A stretch of 39,997 bases of DNA from a virus: IMG/VR virus record IMGVR_UViG_3300017719_000044, positions 1 to 39,997 of that record. One strand, given 5' to 3'. Positions 3,111 through 27,775 of the stretch are shown here, piece by piece. Below the pieces are notes generated by a model. It searched no databases. It was not told the DNA's origin and saw only the letters and a list, made by a program, of their open reading frames with translations. Position numbers and translations under genes: made by a program. Each line of letters opens with the position of its first letter. Position 1 is the first letter of the stretch.

Positions 3111-3521
3111 TTATATCTCACTTGATTGTTCAGTGTCGTCCCTTGCGGGGTGACCAAGCGCACGCAGGTACGCAATGTAAAACTCCGTCCAGTCCGACAA
3201 GCGCATGACCACAAGACTGTCTTCAATCTTCTCTTGGTTCTTGCGAGTAATAACGACTGGAAACTCTTCACTCCTTGTCGCTAAAATATTTCTTTCAGCT
3301 TGGCGTACTGCATCACGGAAGTTAAGGCGCTCCACCCTCTTAGCCTCTATGAAAACTTGTGGCGTACCGAGTATGTCTGCGCCGCCAGCATGTAGGCCGA
3401 CCTTGCCGCCACCACTCAAAGGTGCGCGTTGGCATTGATCTGCGCCGAAGATGTGTTTGTTAAAGTATTTGGCTAAGTCGTTCTCGTACTTGTCGCCTTT
3501 AGCCTTTTGAGGATTACCCAT
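3111..3521 (-). CDS. Holliday-junction-resolvase-like PD-(D/E)XK nuclease (136 aa)
   Basis: The core motifs stand in the archaeal Hjc/phage resolvase order: KGDKYENDLAKYF (helix with Glu), GGADILG (Asp), VFIEAKRVE (Glu-x-Lys) and FRDAVRQAERN (Gln-containing helix). It likely cuts branched replication or recombination intermediates before packaging, which suits the Sak4/SSB/exonuclease set encoded at 6848-8886. Two ATG codons are adjacent (3524 and 3521). I chose 3521 because GGGAAG lies about six bases ahead. A longer frame reaching 3614 would mostly overlap the upstream gene and lacks a good start. The first codons overlap the end of the HTH/zinc-ribbon gene. Confidence 0.72.
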   Translation of the reverse strand: MGNPQKAKGDKYENDLAKYFNKHIFGADQCQRAPLSGGGKVGLHAGGADILGTPQVFIEAKRVERLNFRDAVRQAERNILATRSEEFPVVITRKNQEKIEDSLVVMRLSDWTEFYIAYLRALGHPARDDTEQSSEI

Positions 3522-3825
3522 CATATTCTTCCCACATATAATCAGCAGCCGCCTCACGCTCGTGACACGGCGTACATCTGTATTGATTGATTGGACGTGA
3601 CTTTGTGCAGCCACATATCATACACGGTCGAGACCAGACCTTCGGCTTGGATCGGTAATGATACTTGGCACCAGGAAAGTACGCGAGTTCCATCTTCATC
3701 ATAATCCGTTTGAGTGTGTCTACGCAGCATCCGAGTTGGCGAGCTAAATGTGCGTTCGTGAATTTTGAATGGTTATCCTTCAGCCAATGCTCTTGCTCTG
3801 TAGACAGCGCAAATTTATTTGACAT
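3514..3825 (-). CDS. HTH and zinc-ribbon protein (103 aa)
   Basis: Residues 1-50 hold a homing-endonuclease-like or transposase-like HTH (HLARQLGCCVDTLKRIMMKM). Residues about 68-90 carry two Cys pairs (CMICGC and CTPCHE), a zinc ribbon. Such proteins are common in phages as regulators or as partners of HNH enzymes; no HNH catalytic core is visible. It starts with ATG at 3825 after GGAGACAGC. It is the first gene of the leftward block below the non-coding region and would be transcribed from the putative leftward promoters at 3843-3871 and 4093-4122. DNA binding is inferred from motifs. Confidence 0.6.
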   Translation of the reverse strand: MSNKFALSTEQEHWLKDNHSKFTNAHLARQLGCCVDTLKRIMMKMELAYFPGAKYHYRSKPKVWSRPCMICGCTKSRPINQYRCTPCHEREAAADYMWEEYDG

Positions 3826-3839
3826 GCTGTCTCCGATGT

Positions 3840-3871
3840 TTGTCTATGCGCAACACATATCATGGCAACAA
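3840..3871 (-). promoter_or_regulatory. Leftward promoter with putative operator A
   Basis: On the minus strand TTGTTG (3871-3866) stands 17 bases from CATAGA (3848-3843), aligned base for base with the leftward promoter at 6374-6402. The -10 lies inside TTGTCTATGCGCAA (3840-3853), an imperfect dyad repeated at 4090-4103 and, diverged, at 6371-6384. It would drive the gene starting at 3825 and the lysis block. The motif could be a repressor site, an unusual -10 context, or both. Confidence 0.5.
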
Positions 3872-3891
3872 CTTTTTTACAACTAAGGGTG

Positions 3892-3919
3892 TTGACTTTT
3901 CTGACAAAGACGATAAAAT
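3892..3919 (+). promoter_or_regulatory. Rightward sigma70-like promoter in the non-coding region
   Basis: TTGACT (3892-3897), a 16-base spacer and TAAAAT (3914-3919) make a near-consensus promoter. No protein gene follows it on the plus strand before the terminator at 4185-4212, so it would make a non-coding transcript of about 285 bases ending in the candidate small RNA, or an origin-activating transcript. The -10 overlaps the left arm of the 12-bp inverted repeat. Confidence 0.55.
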
Positions 3920-4022
3920 CGCAAGCGACTTGCAAGCGAAGGTAAGCGAGTTCGCCCCAACGGGACGTTGGGTCGAATGAGCGAGACAAGCGGTTAAGCA
4001 AAGGCGGGCAGCGATTTTATCG
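3911..4022. repeat. 12-bp inverted repeat enclosing phased AAGCGA repeats; possible replication origin
   Basis: CGATAAAATCGC (3911-3922) and GCGATTTTATCG (4011-4022) are perfect inverted copies enclosing 88 bases. Inside, AAGCGA occurs at 3923, 3934 and 3944 (11- and 10-base spacing), with GAGCGA at 3979 and AAGCGG at 3988 nearby. A hairpin (3951-3961 against 3967-3977, one mismatch) carries GGGAC in its loop. Helically phased short repeats next to a primase-helicase gene are what iteron origins look like. The origin call is an inference; no DnaA boxes were identified. Confidence 0.45.
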
Positions 4023-4028
4023 AAATCG

Positions 4029-4078
4029 GTACGCAAAAAAGTACGCAAAAAAAGTTTGTTCAAAGAGGTTCAAAGTGG
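4029..4078. repeat. AT-rich direct repeats beside the putative origin
   Basis: GTACGCAAAAAA is repeated in tandem (4029-4040, then 4041-4053 with one extra A). It is followed by the repeat GTTCAAAG, twice within AGTTTGTTCAAAGAGGTTCAAAG. The segment is A/T-rich and could be the melting region of an origin. GTACGCA is also the 7-mer that is over-represented through the whole window, and these are its only tandem copies. Confidence 0.5.
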
Positions 4079-4107
4079 TTGTGCAATAGTTGTCTATGCG
4101 CTACATT
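4079..4107 (+). promoter_or_regulatory. Rightward promoter for the candidate small RNA, overlapping operator B
   Basis: TTGTGC (4079-4084), a 17-base spacer and TACATT (4102-4107) predict a start near 4113-4115. The dyad TTGTCTATGCGCTA (4090-4103) fills the spacer, so a protein bound there would block it. On the minus strand the same stretch holds TTGTTC (4122-4117), 18 bases from CATAGA (4098-4093), a second leftward promoter. Both promoter calls are by eye. Confidence 0.45.
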
Positions 4108-4112
4108 TAAAG

Positions 4113-4212
4113 GGCAGAACAATCCTCCCTGTTCTGCCTCTCCCAAGAGAAGCTTGTTCTCCTCACAAAGACAGCTCCTTCACTAAGCCCCGCTGGTAGC
4201 GGGGCTTTTTTT
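4113..4212 (+). ncRNA. Candidate phage small RNA with anti-Shine-Dalgarno-like loops
   Basis: About 100 bases lie between the rightward promoter at 4079-4107 and a perfect rho-independent terminator, with no protein gene on this strand. GGCAGAACA (4113-4121) pairs perfectly with TGTTCTGCC (4130-4138), leaving the loop AUCCUCCC. A 5-bp stem (4147-4151/4157-4161) follows, then the terminator. Unpaired or loop stretches contain CCUCCC, CUCUCCC, UUCUCCUC and GCUCCUUC, all complementary to ribosome binding sites such as GGGAGG, AGGAGA and AAGGAGC. Alphaproteobacterial small RNAs with CCUCC loops (alpha-r14 and CcsR/'cuckoo' types) act through such motifs; likeness to them is inference. The alternative is a leader of the opposite strand, but the U tract fits only the plus strand. 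Confidence 0.55.
4185..4212 (+). terminator. Rho-independent terminator, rightward
   Basis: AAGCCCCGCT (4185-4194) and AGCGGGGCTT (4198-4207) form a perfect 10-bp stem with a 3-base loop, followed by seven T on the plus strand. On the minus strand it is followed by TTAGTG, so it works rightward only. It ends in the stop codon of the primase-helicase gene and would keep rightward transcripts from running antisense through that gene. Confidence 0.85.
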
Positions 4213-6157
4213 ATGAGTTGGCTTTTGCGTTTGAGACGTGGCTTTCTATATGCTCGCGCCTCAAGTGCTTAGTCCAGTCAGAAACCACACTGACAGGCTT
4301 GCCCACTTTGTTAGCTATCTCCGCATCAGACAGAGGTGGCATTTGTACCCCCTCGCTATTCGTCCATGGCTGCGCTGCTTTTATAGCACGTTGCTTTGCT
4401 GTGCTTTCGGACACGACACGTACATTCTCTGTGTTCTCGTCCTCCAAAAATGCGATGTACATAACTGGCTCATGTGCGTCGCTCCACTCACGAACTTTCC
4501 CATATCGAAGCTCCATGCAAACTTGTAAGCGTTCTGTTGGCGTGCGGACTGGTGCAGTGCCAAGCATTGTGTGCGGCGTTCTCGGTATGTCACCGTCATA
4601 GATGCCAGCCTTAACGTCTGCTGTCTCTTTGTCGGCGTACACTTGCGTCACCTTTATCTGCGTCTCCAGTACCGTCAACTGGTTTGAGCTTCCCGCCTCC
4701 CGACCAGACCGACCACCATCTGCGGGCTTGTTGGAATGGTGTACAAGTATGACAGTCATCCCCGCATTACGAAGTGTAAGGGCAAGCTTGTTGATGTTGC
4801 CCCACTCTTCTGCGCTGTTCTCTTGCAGCCCAGACCAAGCCGTACGGATCGTGTCGATTACAACAATCTCTGGCTTGTTAAAATTGATCCAGCTTTGCAG
4901 GTTGTTGATGCCAGCGTCTTCTTTAAGGTTCATCATTCTATCGTCGATGAACGGCGTCCATATCATAAAGCGCCCCTCTGCGTCACCGAACGAGCGACGC
5001 GATCTAGTAAGAAACTTTGATATGTTCTGCTTGCTGTTCTCAAAGTCCAAGTAAAGAACACGTGGCTTCTTGCGTATGTCGAACGGTCCGAACGATGGCG
5101 CACCTGCTGCCGCTGCATATAGTAGGTGACGGATGAACATCGACTTACCGTGTCCAGAGTAGCCATGGACCTGCATGATCGTACCCGTATCAGGGATGAT
5201 CGGGTCGACAAAGTATTTTATATTGCTCGCTTCCTCGGCAAGACGGTCAGCATCAAATGTTGTGATCGGCTTGAATCCGCTCGCCTCTGGCTTCTGTTCT
5301 TCGAGCTTCGGCTTATTCTCTTCCTTTGCGTACGCATGGTCGATCACGCTTTGAAACTCTTGCTTGTTGACTTTATGAGGATCGTGGAAGAACTCGGAAA
5401 CGTATTCGATCATAGCTGTCTCGCAGCTTTCCCTCGTATGTCCCTGCGCCGCGTACTCTCCCGCCAAGCTTACGAGCATCTGATGTCGGTTGTCTCCAAC
5501 GCCAGCCATAAGTTTTCGGCCCATCTTCTCGACAAGGTCTCTAGTCGTTTCAACAACACCACGCTTTATTTGGATGTGAGTGAGCGAAAGATTACCAAAC
5601 TTAAAGTCATCGAATGAAACTACGTTGCTCGGCTTCTGCGTGCCGTAGTTATTGACGGGATAATCTGGCACGTCATCCCAGTCAGACCCACTTAATCGCG
5701 TATAGTTTGGCGTAGGTGGAACAAGTGCGATGCCCTTGTGGGCCTTGCGATCCAATCCCTTTACAACATCTCTGGGCCACTCGACACCGTCAGCGTTGCT
5801 CCACGTCAGCGTCTTTATATGTCCCGCATTTTTGGGCCACTTGAAGTAGAAGTGTTTGCCTCGTTTGGTTTGGACAACCCAAGGCGTCTGTGTCAGCCCG
5901 ACTTCCATTGCGTAAGCTTCCGCTTCCTCGTTGTCACAATCGACAACAAGGACGCCAGAAAGTTCACCTGTTACAATCCCAACGTAACTGTTCGGGAATG
6001 CTTCCCACCATTGGATTACTTGTTCTTCGGTTGGGAATTTCCCTTCGTCATAAAGTTCTCCCCACTTTACGACTGGCCTCTTTTCGTTTGGATGGATTGG
6101 GACAACCCACCAACCTTCATCCAGCATCTCCAGTGCTGTGTTCAGATACTCGCTCAC
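4211..6157 (-). CDS. Bifunctional primase-polymerase / RecA-fold helicase (648 aa)
   Basis: The N-terminal half (about 1-190) is a Prim-Pol (archaeo-eukaryotic primase-like) domain: PIHPNEKRPVVKWGELYDEG, then GVLVVDCDNEEA with the metal-binding Asp pair near residues 70-75, and KHFYFKWP. A helical PriCT-like linker follows. A RecA/RepA-type ATPase has Walker A GYSGHGKS (about 334-341) and Walker B EIVVIDT (about 428-434). The C-terminus has an HTH-like segment (DAEIANKVGKPVSVVSDWTK). It would unwind DNA and make primers at the phage origin. I chose GTG at 6157 because CGGGAGAAAACA is an ideal ribosome binding site directly before it; the frame is open to 6244 but without support. It overlaps the HTH gene by 41 bases. 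Confidence 0.85.
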   Translation of the reverse strand: MSEYLNTALEMLDEGWWVVPIHPNEKRPVVKWGELYDEGKFPTEEQVIQWWEAFPNSYVGIVTGELSGVLVVDCDNEEAEAYAMEVGLTQTPWVVQTKRGKHFYFKWPKNAGHIKTLTWSNADGVEWPRDVVKGLDRKAHKGIALVPPTPNYTRLSGSDWDDVPDYPVNNYGTQKPSNVVSFDDFKFGNLSLTHIQIKRGVVETTRDLVEKMGRKLMAGVGDNRHQMLVSLAGEYAAQGHTRESCETAMIEYVSEFFHDPHKVNKQEFQSVIDHAYAKEENKPKLEEQKPEASGFKPITTFDADRLAEEASNIKYFVDPIIPDTGTIMQVHGYSGHGKSMFIRHLLYAAAAGAPSFGPFDIRKKPRVLYLDFENSKQNISKFLTRSRRSFGDAEGRFMIWTPFIDDRMMNLKEDAGINNLQSWINFNKPEIVVIDTIRTAWSGLQENSAEEWGNINKLALTLRNAGMTVILVHHSNKPADGGRSGREAGSSNQLTVLETQIKVTQVYADKETADVKAGIYDGDIPRTPHTMLGTAPVRTPTERLQVCMELRYGKVREWSDAHEPVMYIAFLEDENTENVRVVSESTAKQRAIKAAQPWTNSEGVQMPPLSDAEIANKVGKPVSVVSDWTKHLRREHIESHVSNAKANS

Positions 6158-6347
6158 TGTTTTCTCCCGTGAAATATTGATCGAAGCTAACCGCTGGGAA
6201 TGCTTCTTTGATTTGTGATAGATAAGCAGAAGAAACACTGCCACGTCTGGCCCAGCCGTACGGAACAGACCGTCCAGTATTCAGACGACGTGACACCTCC
6301 CTTGCGCCTCCCAAGTCATTTATCAAACTTTCGATGTCAAAGGTCAT
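6117..6347 (-). CDS. Small Cro-like helix-turn-helix regulator (76 aa)
   Basis: The N-terminal 60 residues form a compact helical DNA-binding domain: ESLINDLGGAREVSRRLN and SVPYGWARRGSVSSAYLSQI read as the HTH core of Cro/YdaS-type phage regulators. The tail (GENSERVSEHSTGDAG) is disordered. The gene faces the early rightward operon across an 81-base gap, the classic place for a Cro/repressor-type switch, and is followed in the same transcript by the primase-helicase. The dyad TTGCTTATACGCTA in the gap, with relatives at 3840 and 4090, is the likely binding site. No integrase is visible, so this may be an early/late timing switch rather than lysogeny control. Binding site and role are inferred. 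Confidence 0.7.
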   Translation of the reverse strand: MTFDIESLINDLGGAREVSRRLNTGRSVPYGWARRGSVSSAYLSQIKEAFPAVSFDQYFTGENSERVSEHSTGDAG

Positions 6348-8055: not shown

Positions 8056-8886
8056 ATGCACCCAGTTCATCCGAAGGTTGCCAGCGTCCTTGAGAAGATA
8101 GACGAGGGCTACGCACAAGAGGTTCGAGGGGGAGCTAGGCAGTATATCGGCGCAAGCATGGCTGGCACCGACTGCATAGCACAACTCGCATTGTCTTTGC
8201 GTGGCTTCCCAGACACATCTGTTGACCCGCAGTTGCAGAGAATTTTCTTTGCTGGTCACAAGATAGAAGACTGGGTTGTCTACGATCTTAGGAAGCGAGC
8301 CGACCTTCGGGTGTGGGAAAAGGACGACATGACTGGACGCCAACACAGGCGTGAATGGTTGAACGGTCACGTCGTTTGCAACGCCGATGGGATCGTCGAT
8401 TTCGAAGATGGTACGGGCCAAGCAATTCTTGAGGTCAAGTCGATGAACGACAACAACTTCAAGAACTTTAAGAGAAATGGTGTGAAGAGTTCGCATCGCA
8501 AGTATTATCGTCAGATGACGATGATGATGGCGATGTTCGGGATCGAGCAAGCTTTTTTCATATCGTACAACAAAAATACAAGTGAATATCACGCTCAACT
8601 TGTTCCTTTTGACCAAGAGGAATGGGACGAAATGTACGTTAAGATACAAGCAGCACTCGATGGACAGGCGGGGCGCGTAGCTTCTGACCCTAATGATTGG
8701 CGATGTAAGTCGTGTTTCAAAAGGGAAAGCTGTTGGAGCCACGAGGCAAACGTGGCCCCCGCCTGTCACTTCTGCAAACACTCTTTCGCAAACAAAAACG
8801 GTGGATGGACGTGCAAGCTGACCAATAAAGAAGTTAGCCGCACATGCGACAAGTACGAACAATTCCGACCAGAGCCAAAGGTTTAG
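8056..8886 (+). CDS. Cas4/YqaJ-like PD-(D/E)XK exonuclease with C-terminal cysteine cluster (276 aa)
   Basis: The nuclease core shows HIVCNADG-type strands: VVCNADGIVDFED (Asp near residue 112) and QAILEVKSMND (Glu-x-Lys near 126-130), then YYRQMTMMMAMFGI, the helix with the conserved Gln/Tyr of RecB-family nucleases. The last 60 residues hold many cysteines (CKSCFKRESC, CHFCKHSF, CKLTNKEVSRTC), suggesting an iron-sulphur cluster as in Cas4 or a zinc ribbon. It would resect DNA ends for annealing by the Sak4-like/SSB pair. I chose ATG at 8056, two bases after the SSB stop; the frame is open further upstream but that stretch overlaps the SSB gene. Confidence 0.85.
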   Translation: MHPVHPKVASVLEKIDEGYAQEVRGGARQYIGASMAGTDCIAQLALSLRGFPDTSVDPQLQRIFFAGHKIEDWVVYDLRKRADLRVWEKDDMTGRQHRREWLNGHVVCNADGIVDFEDGTGQAILEVKSMNDNNFKNFKRNGVKSSHRKYYRQMTMMMAMFGIEQAFFISYNKNTSEYHAQLVPFDQEEWDEMYVKIQAALDGQAGRVASDPNDWRCKSCFKRESCWSHEANVAPACHFCKHSFANKNGGWTCKLTNKEVSRTCDKYEQFRPEPKV

Positions 8887-9453: not shown

Positions 9454-9607
9454 CGTAAGTCTTGACCTTATTTTTAAGGCGATCAAGCAGTCAAACACCG
9501 CAGAGACAAGAGCGATCTTATCTCGTGCGGTTTTTTTCTTGAAGCAGCAACAGTCGAAGATGGACGAGGTTCCGATTGAACAAATCGACCCTCGCCCTTT
9601 TGATTAG
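9428..9607 (+). CDS. Last small gene of the rightward operon (59 aa)
   Basis: This short frame starts at ATG 9428 inside the DUF6378-like gene and ends TAG at 9605-9607. It reads MTPQRNEVDVSLDLIFKAIK and further helical sequence, ending in IEQIDPRPFD. The composition is normal for a soluble helical protein. The tight overlap upstream and the acidic C-terminal tip (DPRPFD, loosely like an SSB-type tip) support it being real. Its stop overlaps by four bases the stop of the giant leftward gene, so the two operons converge tail to tail with no terminator between. Confidence 0.6.
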   Translation: MTPQRNEVDVSLDLIFKAIKQSNTAETRAILSRAVFFLKQQQSKMDEVPIEQIDPRPFD

Positions 9608-12600
9608 TTACTAGCTTTTCCAGCGAGCGTATCAACAATCGTCTCGCGCACACTGCTTGTCTGACCGATAAGTGGTACACGGCTAACGATCTCGCGTACT
9701 GCTGCGCGTGGCTTGCCGTTTGACCCCTCACCCATGATAGCATTCCCACCAGCTTGCGCACCGCCAGCCAGTATTGTTTGTGCATCATGCAGTATGCCGA
9801 GCGATGGTCCGAGTAGCATTTCAGTAATGCGTTGCGCACCGTACGCACCATTGTCTAGCTGGGATGCGGTGTCGTACATAAGTGATCCGATTAAACCAAG
9901 GCCACCCATTTGCATGAGGCCATCACGATACCAACCAAGTGCCATTGCTACGCCTTCATCGTCGCTGATGCCGTAATCTTTCAAGAACTCAAGGCGTCTG
10001 TCGCGTACTGCGAACTCTCTGTTCTCTTCGCCGCCGCGACCTTGAACCACGTCCTTTGCACCAACAACGGCAGCACCAACAACTGGTGCGCCAGCAAAGT
10101 ACATTAGAGGCATGAAGTTCTTGTGATCCTTTGCCTCTTTGTAAACGGTGTAACCCATACGCGTCATCATCAATGGGAACGACTTCAACTGGAAGATCAT
10201 CTGTCCGATTGGTGACTGCGCCCACAGTGGAATGTCTAATGGGTTTGGCGTGAAGATGGTTTCGTTTGCGAACCTGTGCATTGCACCTGCAACTTGGTAG
10301 TACATCTGATCTACGTCAGCAGAAGAGCCGCTGCGCAAGATGCGCTCGATGTTCATTCCTGGTTGTTTGTACAAATCACCAAGGCCGTACTCGTCGAGAA
10401 CACGGCGAGATTGTCGACCAGCCTTCGTGTTCGGCTTGCGTACTGCTATCTCCTGTTGTGACTTGAACCACTCGTAAGATACCGCTGCCGATATATCACG
10501 CATTGTGTTTGTCCAGTCAGTCAACCCGATTGCTGTAAAGAAACCAGCAGAGAAGCGTGTTGTGTCCATACCGAACGCTCGTGACATACGCTCTTGCACA
10601 ATGTTCTGCGTAGATGCGCCGACGTTGCGGATCATTTCGCGATACGCTGGGCCTACATCTGGATCGACCATCCACTTACGGTACGCTTCTGTTGATGAAC
10701 GCAGACTGCCACTTCTAATAAGAGGCAAGACAACGTCACCCAGTGACGACAGTGTCACGAACGGTAGGAGCGTCACGCTGTTGAATGAGCGCAGCCAAGA
10801 CGATGGCTTCTCAAGATGCTTCTCAAAGCTTGCATTGTACACAGGCTTGCGAGCAACAGCCTTGAACAAGTTGTCAGCCTCTTCAACCATGTGTGACTGA
10901 GGCATGTAGCTTTGGTCTAGCCCTTTTGTATCTGTTAAAGCTTCTGCAATCGCACGTGCGCGGAACGAAAAGTTCTTACGCATTTGGTCAGCACCAGAAC
11001 TCAAGCTGTCTGGCTCAACCATGGACATGATGTCCTCGTAGATTTCATCTACTGATGCACCGTCATGTGCTTTCTGCGCCAACTCTTTTGCTTTTTTTTC
11101 TCCGATTATCTGACCCTCTGGTCCACCCTTCTGGATGGGTGCCATGAATACAGCTGACTGGAAGATAGCATGTGCGCCTTCGCCAGCGACCTCGTCTTGT
11201 GTATTGGATGGGTCGATGAACAGCTTGTAGTCCTTGCGCAAAACCTTGTTTGATCGCAGCAATCTTGAGACAGCATCAGTGCCGCCATTCATAACAGCAA
11301 GATAATCGTAGTAGCCGAAACCGCCTACCCCAAATCTGTCCGCTATGTCGATGCGTTGTTCAACGCTGTCTGCGTACTTGGCACCAATAACCATAAGGTC
11401 GTTTTCAAGGAACTTGCTTAGATCGTTCGATGGGTCGCGCATGTTTGTGAACTGCGCTGCCCAGCCTTCGTCTAGGCGGATTAGACGCTGGTAATCCACA
11501 TGGTCTACACCACGTTCTCCGCTTCGGTTGAATGAGTGGGCGTCTCCAACCCATACCCCGTCTTCGTGGATAAGGCGGTCAGCCACGCCCTCTGCTTTCA
11601 AGCGGGCTTGCTGCGGCTTGAGAACCGCACCGCGTTCTGCGTGTTCTGCTGTGAAGTACTTAGACAGGATGTCCACAAATCCTTCGCGGTCTGCTTCTAT
11701 AAGATCGCGACGCCACACTTGAGGAACGTAGTTCTTACGAATGTTCCCAACGTCGTAGCCAGAAGACACAAGTCTGTCGCGAGCCTCTTTGAAATATGTA
11801 CGCATGTACTCGTATATTTCGCGCTCTTGAGATGTAAGCTCTGGAACCCGTCCCTCATTGCGGAGCGCACCGAGAACTCTCAAGTGGCTACCGATAGGCA
11901 TCTTGCGTGTGGGTGGTGGTATGCGCAGCATGGAACCGATGTTTTCGCCAACATTGTATGCGTACAACATTTCTCCAAGACCGTTTTGCAGCCAACGCTT
12001 CATCCCGTTTCCGCTGTCAGGTAGCTTAATAAGCATACGCTGTAGCGGCCCAAGGAATTGACCAGTACGCAAAGCGTAACGTTCGAAGTGGCCTGCGCCC
12101 GCGTCACTTGGCTCAAAGAACTCCGCGATGGATCGCATACCAGAGCGTGCTAGGCGTTGTGCGTTATTGCGTACAAGTCCGAACTTAGCTACCCGACGAA
12201 TTTCACGTCCTTCGCTTGGTGTGATCTCCTTCTTGCGCTTCACTTTTGCTAGTATCTCCGTTGTCTTCTTCGGCATACCCGCGATTTCAAGTGCGGAGAG
12301 TGCATCTTCGAACGCCTGATCTCCGTTGTCGTTTGCAACCTCCATAGCATCAATCACATGTGGAACAACGTCGCTTGGCATGCTCTCATTGAAACCCATC
12401 TCTGGCTCGTCGAACAACGCTGCACGCATATCGCGTACATCTGTTTCGTTGAGCATTGTTTTCTGCCCATTGATGTTAATGCTTGTGAAACCCATGTCGC
12501 GCATTACAGACATTAACTTCTGCTCGCCGCCTGCTGCGTCTTGTAGAAGACTTAGCATTTCAGATGGCTTGTACGATCCGCGCATACCATCAAGGATTGC

Positions 12601-15600
12601 GGAGGATTGTGACATACCCACCGTAAGGTCGTCCGCTTCACGGATGGCGCGGGACAGAACTTTAATAATCCCATCAGATGGGATCATGTCTCTCTTAAAG
12701 TTCGCAGGCTTTGTATCCCTGATAAGAACTGGCGTAGACATGTACTTGTCAGGCACACCCATTTCAGCAAGCTCTAAACGAAGTGCTTGCTCTTCGTAAT
12801 AAAGTTGCTGGATGCTGTTGCGGGAACCCTGCCGCGCGCGAAGCGTGTTAATGCTAGAGCGCACGTCACGTAGTTCGTCGAGTACGTCACGCACTTCGTC
12901 ACTTACTTTGTTCATCGGTGTTCTGGATATTTTGTTAAGTGGTGTCGCGTCCACTCGTATACCAGAGCGCATTGCCCCTACATTACTTACATCCACAAAG
13001 TATGGAATAATGTCTCCATCTTTCACGAAGTCTTGCATCGCACGTATTGTATTTGGTGATGCTTGCTGGATGTAATCAGCAGCAAAGTCTTCAGCGAACT
13101 CGGCTGGCACGTCATCAATGAACTTGTTTTTTGGCGATGTTGGGTCAAAGCTAGATGTCTCTGACAACATGTTGCCGTATGTCATTAAGGGCGCAAAGTT
13201 TCTACGTGCGTTCGGCTTCGCAATAAGCCCGTTAAGAATATACGACACGCCCTCTCTCATTGAGGTACGGACGTCGTTAAGAACATCGAACATGTGTTCT
13301 TTTGCAAAGTCCTCGTCTACTGTATCGAGAACCGCAGCAGCTTTCTTGGGAACCTTTACCCCCGCATCTTCAGCTACTAAACGAGCCAATACTTCAGATG
13401 GGTCATAGCCAACTGCCCCTGCTGCACGTCTAAGTGTTTCTTTTTGCGAGGCTGGCAAGATGCTTGAATTGTAAACGTATCCGCCAACAGTTTCCAAAGA
13501 GTTCATAATGTCTTCAGACTTTGTAACTTCACCTGCAATTTTGCGTACGTCATTCCGAAGTTTTTTGAAACTTTCAGAGGTGACCTTGGGTGACACTTCT
13601 GCCCCGATGTACATAAGGCGGGAAGCGATCTTACGTGCAGTAGATTGTAGTTCGCTTGTGCGGTGGGTGATTGCACGCAAAGCATTTCTGGCAGTGTATG
13701 GAAGAGATGCGGGAATACTTGGGTCTTCGCCAATCTCTGCATCCATCATCTTCTCTGTTTCGATTGCCTTGAATACTAGGTTGTTAGTAACAGTGTTCTT
13801 CTCCCCGCGACGCTGCAACTCCCATTCGATTGCGCGTGCAAGGTCAGCAGAAAACGCAAGGATAGGTTCTTCGTTTGTAAGGTCTTTAGGCGCGTTGCGC
13901 GTCATTAGAATTGCTTTTGTGTAGTTCTGAATAAGCTCTGGCGTACGCATTGCCTTTACTTCGTTCGTGATCGTCTTGTCTGCGACAGGCGTTGCGTTTG
14001 GCATTGAGCGAACAAGCCCAATAATGTGGCTGCGAAGCTTCTTGGATTGTTTAGTCTCCGCGCCAGCGTTCAAGCTGCGCTCGTACGCTTCGATTGATGT
14101 GTTAATATCAAGCTCGTTTATGCGTACCTTTGGCGCGTCCTTCAGGTCTGGCGCTGCTGCTGTATCTTTGATCTTCTGGTTGTTCTTGATGTTGCGCCCA
14201 GTAGCGGCCCGCTTGCGCTTTGCTGCGTTTGCACGGCCCTTAACGCGCTTGAAGCGTTGTGCGCGTTTGATTGTTTCTACGCCATTAGGAAGAGCCTCGC
14301 GACGTGCAATCTCTGTTGATGTCGCTTTGAACTCTGGGATGTCTCCGCCTTCCACGTCTAGGTAGGCGTTGTTCATCGTCGCCTGCACCTCTTTGATGAA
14401 CTCGTTTAAACCTTGCTTGTCAAAGATTTCAGTTATGCCGTCGTACACCTCTGGGCCAAAGCCAATTCCGTCGAAGTCTTCCCCGTCCTTGGTCTTGACG
14501 TCCATCTTGAACTTGCGTGTGACGCTTTCGATGGCCTGTGCTGCTTTTTTCATTTGCTTGTGATGACGACTAACAACTGCAAATGCGCCAGAGTACGGGC
14601 GGAGTGTCTCGTCGTTCTTGCGTGCGATAATTGCAGCTTCTTTCTTTGTGGTAGACATGCCACGAAGCTCTTTGGCAAAGTCCGCCAAGCGTTCGGCTGC
14701 TCGGTCTAAGTCTTTGTCCTCGTATGCTGCACGTGCTTCGTAGAATGAATTGCTCATTTCTGTGAAGCGGATGCGTATTGCTTTGCCTTTGTTTGTTGTT
14801 GGCTCGACTGGGTTCATAACGCTTACGCGCTCTGCCTGCACATCGTCGATGATTAACTTCTCGAAAAGCGGGACAAAGTCTTGGTCGATAATTTCTTTGC
14901 CCTGTATCTTTTGGATGAAGTGCTTGACGAGAGCGGTTACTTTTTCCCACAGACCTTTATCTGGCACAGAAAGCATATCGTACTTTTGTGTTATGAACAA
15001 AGCAAACTGGTTCGCGAAGTATTCGTTAAAGCTTTCTTGAAAATTTCCTGCTCCGATCAGGACTTCACCAGTTTTCGGATTAACAACCGTTGGAGACTTT
15101 TCGATTATGTCTAGGGCTGCATCTGGATACAGCACTCCGTTTTCATTGTAAAACTTCTCAAACAAATTCAAGAAGTCTATCCTTGTCTTGTTGTCTAAAG
15201 CATTAATCCACATCCAATGGCCCATCTCGTGCGCCAAAACAAATTCGGGATTAAGGACTGCATCGCCGCCACCAAGCGTCCTTGCCGCAAGACTGGTGTC
15301 TAACAAAATGGCGTTTGACTGAGCTTTGCTGAAAAATTGCGATGATGCATAATGAGCGTTCATACCTTCGGTTGCTAAAAAAGTAGGCGCGTCACCATCG
15401 TCGGGGATCACTGCTCGCAACATCTTTTCAAAGTTTGCTTTTGCTTTAGCTGGCGCACCTTTCCAGACAACATCTTTTATAAGACGAATGCTGTCTTCAA
15501 GGGTTGTACTGTTATAACGAATGCCATCAGGAACAAAAAAATCTGTTATGGAGAGGGCGTTCTTCACAATAGCCATACGATTCGCAAATGAAAGGTCTTT

Positions 15601-18600
15601 GTTTCTTACTTTTGCGTTGCTTCCAAAGTTTTGACGCGCATCGAAAGGTAGCGAGAACAACTTGTTGTTCAGTGCGTGTAAGTCATAAACAGTCAGTGAG
15701 TTGCTTTCGAATGCATCTTTCATGCGTGGAGTTGCGTCTACCACGTCCAATGCCATTTTTAAGCCGCCGCGCTCCGTCGCGTTGAGAAAATTCAATTCGA
15801 TACGCATGTCACGAGCTTCTTGCTCTGATAGTGGGTACTTCAGAACCTCTACGTCTGTCTCAAGTGGGTTTTCGTATGGATCGTTTCCTTCACCAAAAGG
15901 CTCGAAGTCTGCAAGTAGCTTCTTGCGATCTTTGGCTGTCATGTTTGGAGAAACGTACCCAAGATAGTAGTCGTCTAGGTTTGCACGTGCGATGACTTGG
16001 CGTGGGTCTGTCTGCTTCGGTGATATTTTACGGAACCACGTGCCTTTTTTACCAACCTCGCGTGGGATCATTGCAAAGGTTTTGCCGTTGTCGCGTTCGC
16101 GTGGGATGTCAGGGATGTCGTCACGCTTGACCTCGCCACCCTGCCCTACGGTCTTCTCTGCTTTCTGTGCGGTTTGACCTGTCGCAGCGTCTACGGTCTC
16201 GATGTCTTTTTCTAAATCTTCTAGCGAGCCAGTCTTCTTAAACTTCTCGAACGCGCCATCACGAGCCTCGACTGCTTCCGTCGATGTCATAGGCTCTGGC
16301 TCTGCTTTGCTGACAGTTGTCTTTGCTGTCTTAGTATTTGCCTTGAGACCCATGGCTTTCATAGCCATTTGCTCTGTGGAGTACACTTTGTCTAGGCGTG
16401 GAGAATAATATACTGTCTCCCCTTTTGCGGCCTTACCCGCACGCTTGTTCACGCCCTTCTTGCCGATGACTGTTTCGCCTCCGACAGCACGATATGCGTA
16501 TACGTTGCGTGCCTTAACGCCTTCTTTCTTCGAAAGCTCTCGAAGTATGTCTAGCGTTAGTCTTTGTTTTGGGAACCTGTCGTTAGCATTGATAACAGAG
16601 TAGCCATCGCCAATGTCAAACCCTCTACGCAAGATTGATTGGGGTACAGACTTAACTACACGCTCACCTGTCTTCTTATCGAATGTTACGACTTCTGTTG
16701 TGCCAGCGGTCTTGACGCCCTTCTCAAGCGTGTCTTGGGCTTTCGCTGTACTTCCAGCAGAACGCTTGACAGTTGCGTCATCTGTTGACGCGTCTATCGT
16801 AACTTTCGCACCGCCATCTGTGCGGCCCTCAATGGTTTTAGATTTGCCTTTGATGTCTGGAAGCGTTTGTTCGCGATCCAAGAACTCCCGACGCATCTTG
16901 ACGACTTCTTCAGCGTTCGCAACGTTGATGCCTCTTTCCTCTGCATCCGAGTGCATTCCTAAAAGTTGGCGTAGGTAGCGGTAGACCTGTCCGTCTACTT
17001 GGCCCGTCTCTTCCAGCCCACGAATGATAGCATCCATGTTCTCCAAAAACTCGCTAGAGCCTTTGGACATATCCATGATCTTTTCGTACTTGCGTACGGC
17101 TTCATCGAACGATGCAGTATTTCCGTCAGTGCTTTCTGCTGCGTCAGCTACGTCTGCTTCTTGGTTAGCTGGCTCTTCTGGGAGCGCATCACTTACCTGC
17201 TGATCTTTGGCTTGAGGATCAGCGTCCGCTTCTGGCGTCTTCGCTTCTGGGGCAGCCTTTGTTAGTTCCCCATAGGTTTTCCTAAAAAGCTTGCCGCCTT
17301 TAGTCACTTGAACAGAGCCATCATTTACACGTCTCTGAATTTCAGCGTCTAGGTCGTCACCCTCTAGGCCAAGGTGTTCGCCAATCCTTGCTTTTTGCTC
17401 ATCATTAGCCCAGTCCCACTCAATGCTTTCTTCAGCCGCACGATCTGAGGCACTTCCGTTAGGCTCTAGTTCTGTTGGGGTGCTTTCGTCAGCACTATCT
17501 TGCGTACCCTCTTGCGTACCTTTAGGCTCTGCCTCCGGGCTTCCCTGGGTGTCTGTTTGAACAGTTGCCACTTCAGGTTCCGTACCTTGCGTACTCTCTG
17601 CTGGCCTTTGCATCTGCACTTCGCCGCTTGCGAACAGTTCGTCTGGCTCCATCTCCAGAACTCTTGCTCGCTTTTGCGCTAATGCGTCGAACTGCTGTTT
17701 GACTTGGGATGCGGCTGATGCATTGCCGTTTGCTGTTTCGTCTTGGAACCTCTTGGCTAGGTCGTCTAGCTCAAGGTCCATGTTGTTGACGTACTGCTGG
17801 ACGGCAGCAATATTTTGTTCATCTATCGTGAGGTCTGCAAGTGCTGCCTGACCTGTGTCGACTTCGTTCTGGTCCGTTGTCCCAGACAAAGACGCACTGA
17901 TGGCTTCGCGTTCGCGTGTTATGTAGCCTTGCTCTTGTACAAGCATAGAACCAAGGCGTGTGTTGTCCCAGTCACCCAAGCTACCGACACCCTTGGCGAC
18001 TTCGCCTATGCCTAGCATTGAGCCGCCTTTAACAAGGAGGCCAGCAGCCAAGCCAGAAACGCCAGCGTCTACGAGGCCAGCACCCGCCAAGCGCGCTACG
18101 TCAAAGTCTTCTGAGACGCCTTGGGCAATCTCCATGCCCTGCTGTGCTGCGTCAAAAGCAAGGCCAGTACCAGCGCCGATTGCTGCTTCGCCTGCTGCTG
18201 CCTTGCGTACGCCTGCTTTTGTAGCTTCTTTTGTTGCTTGCTCTAATGTTTTACCCGCAAGCCTCGCCCCTTGGCCCGCTTTTACAGCAGCCCCGCCTGC
18301 ACCAACACCAATAAGGTTGATGGGGTCAGCGACACCAGCAACGCCGTAGTCAATTACTTTATCAAGTACGCCGCCACGCGAAGGTGCCTGCGCCCATAGC
18401 TTCGAAAGTCTTGATAGCTTTTCTCTACCGCTGTCTCCAGCCGTCGCAAACTCGACTGCGTCGAGGCCCATAGATAAAGAGTTGACATCGCTCCAGCGTT
18501 TGTCTGTGTAGAACTTGTCCCACATCTCACTAGAGTTGTTGAAGTATACCCCGTTGGCTGCGTAATAGTCGCGAACCTCGGCTATCGCATCTTGGTCAGA

Positions 18601-18699
18601 TAGTAGCTCGTAGCCACTCTTTGATAGATAGTCGGGTGTGTTGTTGTCTTGTTGGTTGCGAAACGAACCACTAAGGATACTGCGTGCATTGTCGGACAT
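9604..18699 (-). CDS. Giant polyvalent, probably ejected virion protein with HExxH metallopeptidase domain (about 3031 aa)
   Basis: This single open frame fills almost a quarter of the window. The N-terminal 270 residues are Gly/Ala-rich and membrane-active looking (GVAGVADPINLIGVGAGGAA). A long acidic, Glu/Thr/Ala-rich linker follows. Near residue 1155 LAHEMGHWMW is a zincin HExxH, with FNEYFANQFA about 65 residues later supplying a likely third ligand. The C-terminal part (LPFVTLSSLGDVVLPLIRSG; PLWAQSPIGQMIFQLKSFPL) resembles LPD38-type domains of phage polyvalent proteins. Such proteins enter the host with the DNA. I prefer ATG 18699 (GGAG six bases before) over ATG 18711. It closes the virion operon, as T7 gp16-like ejection proteins do. 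Confidence 0.8.
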   Translation of the reverse strand: MSDNARSILSGSFRNQQDNNTPDYLSKSGYELLSDQDAIAEVRDYYAANGVYFNNSSEMWDKFYTDKRWSDVNSLSMGLDAVEFATAGDSGREKLSRLSKLWAQAPSRGGVLDKVIDYGVAGVADPINLIGVGAGGAAVKAGQGARLAGKTLEQATKEATKAGVRKAAAGEAAIGAGTGLAFDAAQQGMEIAQGVSEDFDVARLAGAGLVDAGVSGLAAGLLVKGGSMLGIGEVAKGVGSLGDWDNTRLGSMLVQEQGYITREREAISASLSGTTDQNEVDTGQAALADLTIDEQNIAAVQQYVNNMDLELDDLAKRFQDETANGNASAASQVKQQFDALAQKRARVLEMEPDELFASGEVQMQRPAESTQGTEPEVATVQTDTQGSPEAEPKGTQEGTQDSADESTPTELEPNGSASDRAAEESIEWDWANDEQKARIGEHLGLEGDDLDAEIQRRVNDGSVQVTKGGKLFRKTYGELTKAAPEAKTPEADADPQAKDQQVSDALPEEPANQEADVADAAESTDGNTASFDEAVRKYEKIMDMSKGSSEFLENMDAIIRGLEETGQVDGQVYRYLRQLLGMHSDAEERGINVANAEEVVKMRREFLDREQTLPDIKGKSKTIEGRTDGGAKVTIDASTDDATVKRSAGSTAKAQDTLEKGVKTAGTTEVVTFDKKTGERVVKSVPQSILRRGFDIGDGYSVINANDRFPKQRLTLDILRELSKKEGVKARNVYAYRAVGGETVIGKKGVNKRAGKAAKGETVYYSPRLDKVYSTEQMAMKAMGLKANTKTAKTTVSKAEPEPMTSTEAVEARDGAFEKFKKTGSLEDLEKDIETVDAATGQTAQKAEKTVGQGGEVKRDDIPDIPRERDNGKTFAMIPREVGKKGTWFRKISPKQTDPRQVIARANLDDYYLGYVSPNMTAKDRKKLLADFEPFGEGNDPYENPLETDVEVLKYPLSEQEARDMRIELNFLNATERGGLKMALDVVDATPRMKDAFESNSLTVYDLHALNNKLFSLPFDARQNFGSNAKVRNKDLSFANRMAIVKNALSITDFFVPDGIRYNSTTLEDSIRLIKDVVWKGAPAKAKANFEKMLRAVIPDDGDAPTFLATEGMNAHYASSQFFSKAQSNAILLDTSLAARTLGGGDAVLNPEFVLAHEMGHWMWINALDNKTRIDFLNLFEKFYNENGVLYPDAALDIIEKSPTVVNPKTGEVLIGAGNFQESFNEYFANQFALFITQKYDMLSVPDKGLWEKVTALVKHFIQKIQGKEIIDQDFVPLFEKLIIDDVQAERVSVMNPVEPTTNKGKAIRIRFTEMSNSFYEARAAYEDKDLDRAAERLADFAKELRGMSTTKKEAAIIARKNDETLRPYSGAFAVVSRHHKQMKKAAQAIESVTRKFKMDVKTKDGEDFDGIGFGPEVYDGITEIFDKQGLNEFIKEVQATMNNAYLDVEGGDIPEFKATSTEIARREALPNGVETIKRAQRFKRVKGRANAAKRKRAATGRNIKNNQKIKDTAAAPDLKDAPKVRINELDINTSIEAYERSLNAGAETKQSKKLRSHIIGLVRSMPNATPVADKTITNEVKAMRTPELIQNYTKAILMTRNAPKDLTNEEPILAFSADLARAIEWELQRRGEKNTVTNNLVFKAIETEKMMDAEIGEDPSIPASLPYTARNALRAITHRTSELQSTARKIASRLMYIGAEVSPKVTSESFKKLRNDVRKIAGEVTKSEDIMNSLETVGGYVYNSSILPASQKETLRRAAGAVGYDPSEVLARLVAEDAGVKVPKKAAAVLDTVDEDFAKEHMFDVLNDVRTSMREGVSYILNGLIAKPNARRNFAPLMTYGNMLSETSSFDPTSPKNKFIDDVPAEFAEDFAADYIQQASPNTIRAMQDFVKDGDIIPYFVDVSNVGAMRSGIRVDATPLNKISRTPMNKVSDEVRDVLDELRDVRSSINTLRARQGSRNSIQQLYYEEQALRLELAEMGVPDKYMSTPVLIRDTKPANFKRDMIPSDGIIKVLSRAIREADDLTVGMSQSSAILDGMRGSYKPSEMLSLLQDAAGGEQKLMSVMRDMGFTSININGQKTMLNETDVRDMRAALFDEPEMGFNESMPSDVVPHVIDAMEVANDNGDQAFEDALSALEIAGMPKKTTEILAKVKRKKEITPSEGREIRRVAKFGLVRNNAQRLARSGMRSIAEFFEPSDAGAGHFERYALRTGQFLGPLQRMLIKLPDSGNGMKRWLQNGLGEMLYAYNVGENIGSMLRIPPPTRKMPIGSHLRVLGALRNEGRVPELTSQEREIYEYMRTYFKEARDRLVSSGYDVGNIRKNYVPQVWRRDLIEADREGFVDILSKYFTAEHAERGAVLKPQQARLKAEGVADRLIHEDGVWVGDAHSFNRSGERGVDHVDYQRLIRLDEGWAAQFTNMRDPSNDLSKFLENDLMVIGAKYADSVEQRIDIADRFGVGGFGYYDYLAVMNGGTDAVSRLLRSNKVLRKDYKLFIDPSNTQDEVAGEGAHAIFQSAVFMAPIQKGGPEGQIIGEKKAKELAQKAHDGASVDEIYEDIMSMVEPDSLSSGADQMRKNFSFRARAIAEALTDTKGLDQSYMPQSHMVEEADNLFKAVARKPVYNASFEKHLEKPSSWLRSFNSVTLLPFVTLSSLGDVVLPLIRSGSLRSSTEAYRKWMVDPDVGPAYREMIRNVGASTQNIVQERMSRAFGMDTTRFSAGFFTAIGLTDWTNTMRDISAAVSYEWFKSQQEIAVRKPNTKAGRQSRRVLDEYGLGDLYKQPGMNIERILRSGSSADVDQMYYQVAGAMHRFANETIFTPNPLDIPLWAQSPIGQMIFQLKSFPLMMTRMGYTVYKEAKDHKNFMPLMYFAGAPVVGAAVVGAKDVVQGRGGEENREFAVRDRRLEFLKDYGISDDEGVAMALGWYRDGLMQMGGLGLIGSLMYDTASQLDNGAYGAQRITEMLLGPSLGILHDAQTILAGGAQAGGNAIMGEGSNGKPRAAVREIVSRVPLIGQTSSVRETIVDTLAGKASN

Positions 18700-18758
18700 C
18701 GGGTACTCCATTTAACCTGATGGTCACAGATTAAACGGAGAGCCGACTTTTATCGTCC

Positions 18759-26131: not shown

Positions 26132-27775
26132 TTATGCGTTCACTAACTGGGCTGCGGCCTGACCTACGACAGTAGCAACTCCAGCTTCAGAAAATTCTGC
26201 GCTCGATGCTGATTGATCTTCTCTGCGCCGAGCTATCTCCCGCTCCACTTCTTCTTTGCGCTCCATAGCCATTCGATAAGATGAAGAACCTGCTTCGTAC
26301 CCCTGAAGCTCTTCCATTACATTGGACAAAAGGAGTTGAAGATCAGCGAGCTTGTACCCAGAAAAGCGTTCAGCAGAAGCTATGCGTCCCATTAAGCCCG
26401 CGTCTACTTTTGTGTCGCCAGTCGCTTCCATGTACGCAAGCATGTTCGCAATGTCATTCATGGCGTTCTTCGCCCCATCTTGCGAACCTGCGTACGTCGC
26501 CTCGACATATCCCGTTTCGTCCGTACCAACGATAACAGCCACGTTTCCCTCTTTGGTGAGATAGGTGTGGATAGAGCCTTCAAGGCTGTCAGCCACTTCG
26601 GCTGGCATCATGGACATCATTTGGTCAATAGAGTTTGCGGCTTGTTCAGAGAACGCAAATGCTTTGGCATCTTCCATGGAGTGTATAACTTGAAATGGCT
26701 TTACCTGCCCAGTGTAGCTACCAGCGACATCGGCAACGCCACCCTTATAGTCATAGTTTAGAAAGCGCATACCATCAGCGCGGGTGTTAAATCGGTTCTG
26801 GTTGTACTCAAAGTTACCGACTACATCTGAATACGTTGCGTCTGTTGCCGCTGTATCGTCCGCTCCTTCAGCAGATGTTCCTTCTTGGTTTTTTGTATCA
26901 TTGCTAGAGCTATCGTCGCGGTCCATAGCGATAGCAGGGCTGCCGCTGCTTGCGTTGCCGCCTCCGCTTAGTGGGTTATTGAAGACGCCGCCTTGTGTGA
27001 ACATGCTGCCATCTCCGTCTACGTCGAAGATGCTGTTGACTGCTTTTGCTCCCAAGTATGCTACTGGGTTGGTCACAAGAGCCGCGACGTTTGCTATCGT
27101 TGAGAATGTGCTATCTCCTTGCACGAGAGCGTTTGTGCCGTAACTGTTGTTGGTGGCTGTAAGTAAGCTCCCGTCACCGTCAGCATCGAGTGCGTTCCAG
27201 ATGTACCCACTGTCGTTTTGCGACGTAACGTTCATCTGCTGACCGAATATGTTTGTGGTCGCTCCGAACCTGTCTGTGGCTGTCCACATTGACCCATCGC
27301 CGTCACGATCAAATGGATTACGCTTTCTGTTCTCTTCGCGCTGGGCGTCGCTTATTACGCCGCGACCAGCAATGCCAGCCTCGCCGCCGTTTGCTGCTTC
27401 TGATACGCCAACAGTTTTGCCTGTCTCTGGGTCCACAGTAAGAAGGGAGCCGCTGCCGTTTCTCCAGTCATCATCTGTGTCAATGTTGCCACCAAGCGTG
27501 TAGCTAGTACCGTCTGTGTTCTTTGTTGTTATGGTTGACGTTGCGTTGCTTGCGTCAACCGCATGGTCTGGGTTTGCTGCGTTCCAATCAGACCAGTCGA
27601 AGTCGTTAAACTCAAGAAGGCCAGTGGCAGGGTTGCGCGTGCCGTTGCCTAGCTTCTTGAGTATTTCTACTTCATCTGGTGTTACGTGGACAAGCTGCGT
27701 GTCCCCCAACCGACCCATGTCAGAAAGGGACTGTGCCATTGCTCGCATTTGGGCTGGGGATAGGTCATTAGACAT
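26132..27775 (-). CDS. Virion protein with three DxDGDGS calcium motifs (547 aa)
   Basis: Residues 20-55 carry the GDTQLVHVTP...NPATGLLEF domain also found in the 82-residue protein next door. Three calcium-loop motifs follow: FDRDGDGSMWTATDRFG (about 155), LDADGDGSLLTATNNSYG (about 195) and FDVDGDGSMFTQGG (about 250), each spaced 40-55 residues. The rest is Asn/Ser/Thr/Asp-rich, ending in a helical segment (RMAMERKEEVEREIARRRED). It overlaps the fibre gene by 8 bases and is followed by a 58-base gap with GGGACGAC. It is probably a tail or ejection component stabilised by calcium, inferred from motifs and position. Confidence 0.6.
   Translation of the reverse strand: MSNDLSPAQMRAMAQSLSDMGRLGDTQLVHVTPDEVEILKKLGNGTRNPATGLLEFNDFDWSDWNAANPDHAVDASNATSTITTKNTDGTSYTLGGNIDTDDDWRNGSGSLLTVDPETGKTVGVSEAANGGEAGIAGRGVISDAQREENRKRNPFDRDGDGSMWTATDRFGATTNIFGQQMNVTSQNDSGYIWNALDADGDGSLLTATNNSYGTNALVQGDSTFSTIANVAALVTNPVAYLGAKAVNSIFDVDGDGSMFTQGGVFNNPLSGGGNASSGSPAIAMDRDDSSSNDTKNQEGTSAEGADDTAATDATYSDVVGNFEYNQNRFNTRADGMRFLNYDYKGGVADVAGSYTGQVKPFQVIHSMEDAKAFAFSEQAANSIDQMMSMMPAEVADSLEGSIHTYLTKEGNVAVIVGTDETGYVEATYAGSQDGAKNAMNDIANMLAYMEATGDTKVDAGLMGRIASAERFSGYKLADLQLLLSNVMEELQGYEAGSSSYRMAMERKEEVEREIARRREDQSASSAEFSEAGVATVVGQAAAQLVNA

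Follow-up and report, generated by a model that had tools for sequence, protein, structure and literature searches.

In the 39,997-nt stretch of DNA analysed here (the window, an IMG/VR viral record), a 112-nt hairpin at 3911–4022, beginning 188 bases beyond the stop codon (4211) of a gene for a PrimPol and AAA_25 replication protein, holds the -10 box of a rightward promoter within the 5' arm of its foot. In relatives the same combination of promoter and hairpin recurs at a constant position 3' of the PrimPol gene; its paired arms covary, and its + strand folds preferentially. By analogy with known systems, the region may well be a replication origin, in which a stem-loop of about 110 nt closely follows the 3' end of the PrimPol-helicase gene and includes in its foot the -10 of a host-type promoter.

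Anatomy of the element

About 385 non-coding bases separate an HTH-type ORF from the replication gene, and the following features were located in and around this interval (positions of the 39,997-nt stretch):

3514–3825, minus strand: 103-aa HTH and four-cysteine protein, beside the element in the loci examined
3840–3855, no strand assigned: operator-like repeat TTGTCTATGCGCAACA at the promoter region of the HTH gene (repeat computation)
3892–3897, plus strand: -35 box TTGACT (read from the sequence; every one of the 75 elements has TTGA[C/T/A] at 16–17 nt from its -10)
3911–3922, plus strand: 5' arm of the hairpin foot, CGATAAAATCGC (repeat computation, covariation)
3914–3919, plus strand: -10 box TAAAAT, within the 5' arm (read from the sequence, conserved in relatives)
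3923–4010, plus strand: imperfect rod between the arms, holding three AAGCGA copies (3923–3949) and an apical hairpin (DNA fold)
3950–3978, plus strand: apical hairpin of two helices with one mismatch and a 3-nt loop; pairing kept and sequence variable in relatives (folds, comparison)
4011–4022, plus strand: 3' arm of the hairpin foot, GCGATTTTATCG (repeat computation, covariation)
4029–4052, plus strand: two tandem A-tract direct repeats GTACGCAAAAAA adjoining the stem (repeat computation)
4030–4033, plus strand: TACG (in most relatives TACR), a motif that keeps a fixed spacing from the 3' side of the stem and is a candidate for single-strand recognition or priming
4090–4105, no strand assigned: another copy of the operator-like repeat, TTGTCTATGCGCTACA; a possible second promoter in the rightward direction overlaps it (repeat computation)
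4112–4212, plus strand: probable small RNA, a CCUCCC-loop hairpin followed by an intrinsic terminator at 4185–4212 (fold; sub-threshold ar14 match)
4211–6244, minus strand: replication protein with PrimPol (PF09250), PriCT_1-like and AAA_25 domains (domain search)

The initial annotation had read this region as an origin-like, transcription-linked stretch, and its account of the anatomy is borne out: the three AAGCGA repeats start at 3923, 3934 and 3944 (spacing 11 and 10), the two arms form a perfect 12-bp inverted repeat, the AT-rich direct repeats are the tandem GTACGCAAAAAA copies, the promoter beside them reads TTGACT-N16-TAAAAT (3892–3919), the whole stands downstream of the primase-helicase gene, and the left arm does cover the -10 box, an overlap that in relatives is conserved and structural. 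The AAGCGA copies belong to the 5' side of a single long imperfect hairpin, and positions 3908–4025 folded as DNA give -27.7 kcal/mol (z -5.5).

Taken alone, the inverted repeat, the sole perfect 12-bp one with a 40–160 base gap in the window, is weak evidence because comparable repeats were present in 8 of 30 first-order Markov sequences. The AAGCGA triplet at the observed spacing appeared in none of 300 simulated sequences and a triplet of any hexamer in 2 of 50, while AAGCGA is not enriched across the window (26 found versus 30 expected). It is conservation among relatives that raises the element far above chance.

The promoter is predicted from its boxes and their spacing, which are of the sigma-70 type (TTGACa and TAnnnT, 16–18 apart), and with both strands scanned it is the only exact match to TTGAC-N17-TAnnnT in the window. 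Since the left arm spans the -10, an RNA begun at this predicted promoter would lack that arm; that the arms pair perfectly is therefore a sign of structure in the DNA, on the + (non-template) strand.

The scan with Rfam 15 gave nothing at or above the gathering threshold, and the rod matches no family; a sub-threshold match to the alphaproteobacterial sRNA ar14 covers 4105–4211 only. The CCUCCC loop of the probable small RNA is anti-Shine-Dalgarno-like, and UCCUCCC-type loops recur in many relatives that have enough room for them. The operator-like repeats at 3840–3855 and 4090–4105 share the form TTGTCTATGCGC[A/T]ACA and are more palindromic in L035 and L036 (GTTGTCTTTACGCAAC). Two other relatives carry further motifs near the PrimPol gene: in L009 (about 3990–3750) a segment with its own promoter-like site and terminator is inserted between hairpin and PrimPol and includes a compact, structured-looking stretch, GACGAAAGTC, near a sub-threshold NsiR1 match, and one relative, L010, has a similar motif, TGCGTATACGCTACACACAAC, upstream of the PrimPol start, at the opposite end of the gene (about 5860–5820).

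The replication protein and the phage family

The replication protein carries a Prim-Pol domain (PF09250, E 1e-18), a borderline PriCT_1 and an AAA_25 domain, which we take to be akin to the RepA-type hexameric helicase family; its gene probably starts at the GTG at 6157. A profile search of the PDB returned ORF904 of pRN1 as its only relative (E 9e-7). Among cultured phages there is one good relative, Roseobacter phage CRP-810, with 38.5% identity in the replication protein. Because CRP-810 has the same local gene order as the window, we assign the window, on gene content and order, to the CRP-810-type temperate phages of PMC11288001, with whose family order its core replication genes agree (RusA-type resolvase, PrimPol-AAA_25, ATPase, nuclease, phosphofructokinase-like), and which have the same element; the main text of that paper speaks of neither a stem-loop nor a non-coding element.

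The HTH and four-cysteine protein is a candidate regulator or origin binder. In the CRP-810 record (L037) its gene is present at 8407–8691 and unannotated. The same record has, on the minus strand from about 8160 down, an unannotated 105-codon ORF directly after the hairpin and convergent with PrimPol, with homologues in L078, L079, L093, L094, L097, L098 and L101. Elsewhere in the window, a minus-strand ORF of 3035 aa (9604–18711) probably encodes a very large virion protein.

Conservation and covariation among relatives

Relatives were gathered by a promoter pattern scan plus a protein-profile scan, and in 75 of 77 testable loci, cultured CRP-810 included, the promoter and hairpin lie 3' of PrimPol. 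These 75 elements have the form TTGA[C/T/A]-N16/17-TAnnn[T/C/A], with the -10 within the left arm and the right arm about 65–90 bases onward; both this count and the comparison of strand folding in 25 representatives required the -10 pattern, which builds in the constancy of its first two bases. The repeat was also found by searches free of that requirement. In one of these, circularity was avoided by simply taking, for each locus, the longest inverted repeat within 1.3 kb 3' of PrimPol. A promoter lies across the left arm of this repeat in 71 of 72 loci and across the right arm in 5 of 72; the background rate for random positions is 3.1%.

The arms themselves are not conserved in sequence. 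The 75 elements hold 36 distinct arm pairs, and arm sequences are wholly different between groups, for example CGATAAAATCGC, TGGTACGCTCT, TGATACAACCGTC, TGGTATAACGTC and, in CRP-810, TGGTACAAACGC, with the partner arm changing too. In a formal count over 23 distinct arm pairs, 94.9% of foot cells are paired and 9 of the 12 foot pairs show double compensatory changes, giving a covariation score of 0.599 against 0.180 (sd 0.023) when shuffled and 0.01–0.13 when slid; the seven innermost foot pairs covary with no G-U pair among them. The foot is cut down to 8 pairs in four close loci, L006, L007, L040 and L041. Above the foot, the rod of the relatives is imperfect, with an apical hairpin near its centre and a sequence that changes while pairing is kept. 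RNAalifold on a plain MAFFT alignment missed this rod because its sequence does not align, and the arms were therefore anchored on the -10 instead.

Folding favours the + strand over the - strand in 21 of 25 representatives when RNA parameters are used and in 20 of 25 under DNA parameters. In most representatives a TACG/TACA-like motif about seven bases past the foot precedes an A-rich stretch, which is common among relatives, the exact GTACGCAAAAAA repeat being limited to the closest ones. Conservation had been put forward in the initial annotation as a check on its repeats: the inverted repeat is conserved and the AAGCGA repeats are not.

What follows the element differs by lineage. Loci of the CRP-810 branch have a conserved small ORF, with a motif like NRRKYPEIAxxVDxVRxYFP, that starts 4–77 bases past the right arm on the same strand, L070 and L073 have a different ORF, and the branch of the window has a short RNA with the CCUCCC loop and a terminator. 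The content of the transcript is thus exchangeable while promoter and hairpin persist, and since the element persists with small ORF, different ORF or small RNA, its job would be independent of what lies downstream.

No clear element was seen in L111 (a gammaproteobacterial MAG, 35% identity) or L068, nor was one found in the first 16 kb of CRP-901, a roseophage whose PrimPol lacks the AAA_25 fusion. A nucleotide search of phage records with 3400–4800 gave no matches, the genome scan returned only L111 plus one probably spurious match, and the pattern TTGTCTATGCGCWACA matched mostly unrelated loci, besides close relatives.

Alternative explanations

Several other functions could be imagined for such an element. 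The rod might act within the transcript, as a 5' UTR regulator, an antitermination-like element or an sRNA, with the DNA structure incidental. We regard this as rather unlikely, although the + strand preference under RNA parameters fits it, as do the fold of the predicted transcript 3923–4212 (z -3.5), which ends at the intrinsic terminator, and the position of the rod as 5' leader of the conserved small ORF in one branch. The most strongly covarying helix, however, is the foot, which includes the -10 and so lies outside the promoter's own RNA; its innermost pairs covary free of G-U, the element stays while the downstream content varies by lineage, and Rfam holds no match to the rod. Improbable, in our judgement, is a purely transcriptional switch in which a cruciform or DNA hairpin hides the -10 of the rightward promoter and replication is uninvolved: the -10 does lie within the foot in all elements, and the operator-like repeats and the HTH gene adjoin it, but such a switch leaves unexplained the conserved rod of about 100 nt, the fixed 3' TACR motif and the constant place by a PrimPol gene whose relative in pRN1 uses such a stem-loop as origin.

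The iteron origin that the initial annotation had considered, bound via the phased AAGCGA repeats, is very unlikely. Its three copies have the spacing of 10–11 bases that no simulated sequence reproduced; yet 16 of 25 representatives have no AAGCGA, and three copies are seen only in that of the window, where they lie in the hairpin stem, as part of the rod of one lineage. The iteron part of that earlier reading is thus unsupported, whereas its origin-like, transcription-linked part coincides with the interpretation we favour. Short perfect inverted repeats some 90 bp apart at a promoter also resemble phase switches, and the 12-bp repeats could in principle be recombinase sites bounding an invertible segment. 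This is barely credible here: the middle keeps its orientation in aligned relatives and itself folds into a hairpin whose pairing is maintained, and an inverted segment would again carry the same -10. Against the origin that we prefer stand the AAA_25 helicase, in place of the SF3 and winged-helix parts of pRN1 and BIP-1, and the finding that pRN1's protein does not bind its stem-loop specifically; the GC skew of the window, uninformative here, has no extremum at the element and lends the origin no support.

Discussion

We favour a replication origin because ORF904 of pRN1 is the only solved relative of the replication protein and genetic evidence makes the stem-loop of that plasmid a cis element required for replication. 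The comparison with known systems brings out likenesses and differences: (i) In the Sulfolobus plasmid pRN1, a stem-loop of about 100 nt 3' of the PrimPol gene is a required, movable cis element, a stem mutation is rescued by restored pairing, and the plasmid's own protein shows no specific binding to the stem-loop (Berkner 2014, PMC4234260). The window resembles it in the group of its PrimPol, in a stem-loop of this size just 3' of the gene and, as the covariation indicates, in a structure that is kept while the sequence varies. In contrast, the pRN1 protein has an SF3 helicase and a winged helix, no promoter has been described in the pRN1 stem, and pRN1 is experimentally supported whereas the window is known from sequence. 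Since AAA_25 replaces SF3 and winged helix, the element would work like the pRN1 replicon rather than being one. (ii) Phage BIP-1 has a like stem-loop in the same layout (PMC4234260), and in BPP-1 we located a 106-nt stem-loop at 26607–26712, beyond a small convergent ORF 3' of rep, with no TTGAC promoter found in its stem. These Bordetella phages share with the window a temperate lifestyle, a PrimPol-type Rep and a stem-loop 3' of rep, but their Rep is of the SF3 type and their sequence is unrelated. (iii) In RSF1010, RepB' recognises the hairpins of the ssi sites and starts priming immediately to their 3' side (PMC4434180; PMC4234260). The likeness lies in a primase of the AEP family, in its hairpin target followed within a few bases by a motif, and in a RepA-type hexameric helicase. 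An ssi site, however, is about 40 nt long and has a GTG motif, and RSF1010 carries two of them (ssiA and ssiB) in opposed orientation, together with iterons, whereas the window has one hairpin of about 110 nt and no conserved iterons, and instead of a GTG a few bases 3' of the hairpin it has TACR at a fixed distance. (iv) The PrimPol of phage NrS-1 (NrSPol), which starts at defined template sequences, uses the motifs TTTGGTTA and GTG (PMC8718748); TTTGGTTA is absent from the window, and that paper mentions no stem-loop.

The pairing of the arms on the + strand, the stem-loops of pRN1 and BIP-1 and ssi priming in RSF1010 are the reasons why we infer an origin whose + strand is exposed by transcription; its role, the order of its steps and the shut-off of the -10 are all likewise inferred. 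Host RNA polymerase would open the -10 and transcribe into the rod, from a promoter predicted by its sequence and conservation. The displaced non-template (+) strand, bearing both arms, could then fold into the hairpin, which would also close the -10 against further starts. By homology and analogy with ORF904 of pRN1 and with RepB'/RepA of RSF1010, the PrimPol-AAA_25 protein would recognise the hairpin and its 3' flank (N7-TACR, A-tract), load and prime DNA synthesis. That the origin is in this way transcription-fired and self-limiting, each start opening the strand that folds into the origin hairpin and the stem-held -10 blocking re-transcription, is a possibility that we put forward tentatively and consider doubtful. 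We found no earlier description, in the open-licence literature, of a -10 inside a compensatorily evolving stem, and what is provisionally new in the proposal is a promoter placed in the foot of the stem, by which transcription would be coupled to hairpin formation.

Few origins of PrimPol-type phages are known, and the element offers a candidate with precise bounds that is common to a whole family of abundant ocean phages, of which CRP-810 is in culture. If it is an origin, the stem-loop mode of pRN1 would extend to the AAA_25-type PrimPol phages of alphaproteobacteria, and the presence of the -10 in the stem makes a coupling of transcription to the start of replication directly testable. Were the origin also self-limiting, a single piece of DNA would alternate between starting transcription and serving as an active origin, and compensatory evolution would have preserved this pair of states throughout the phage family.
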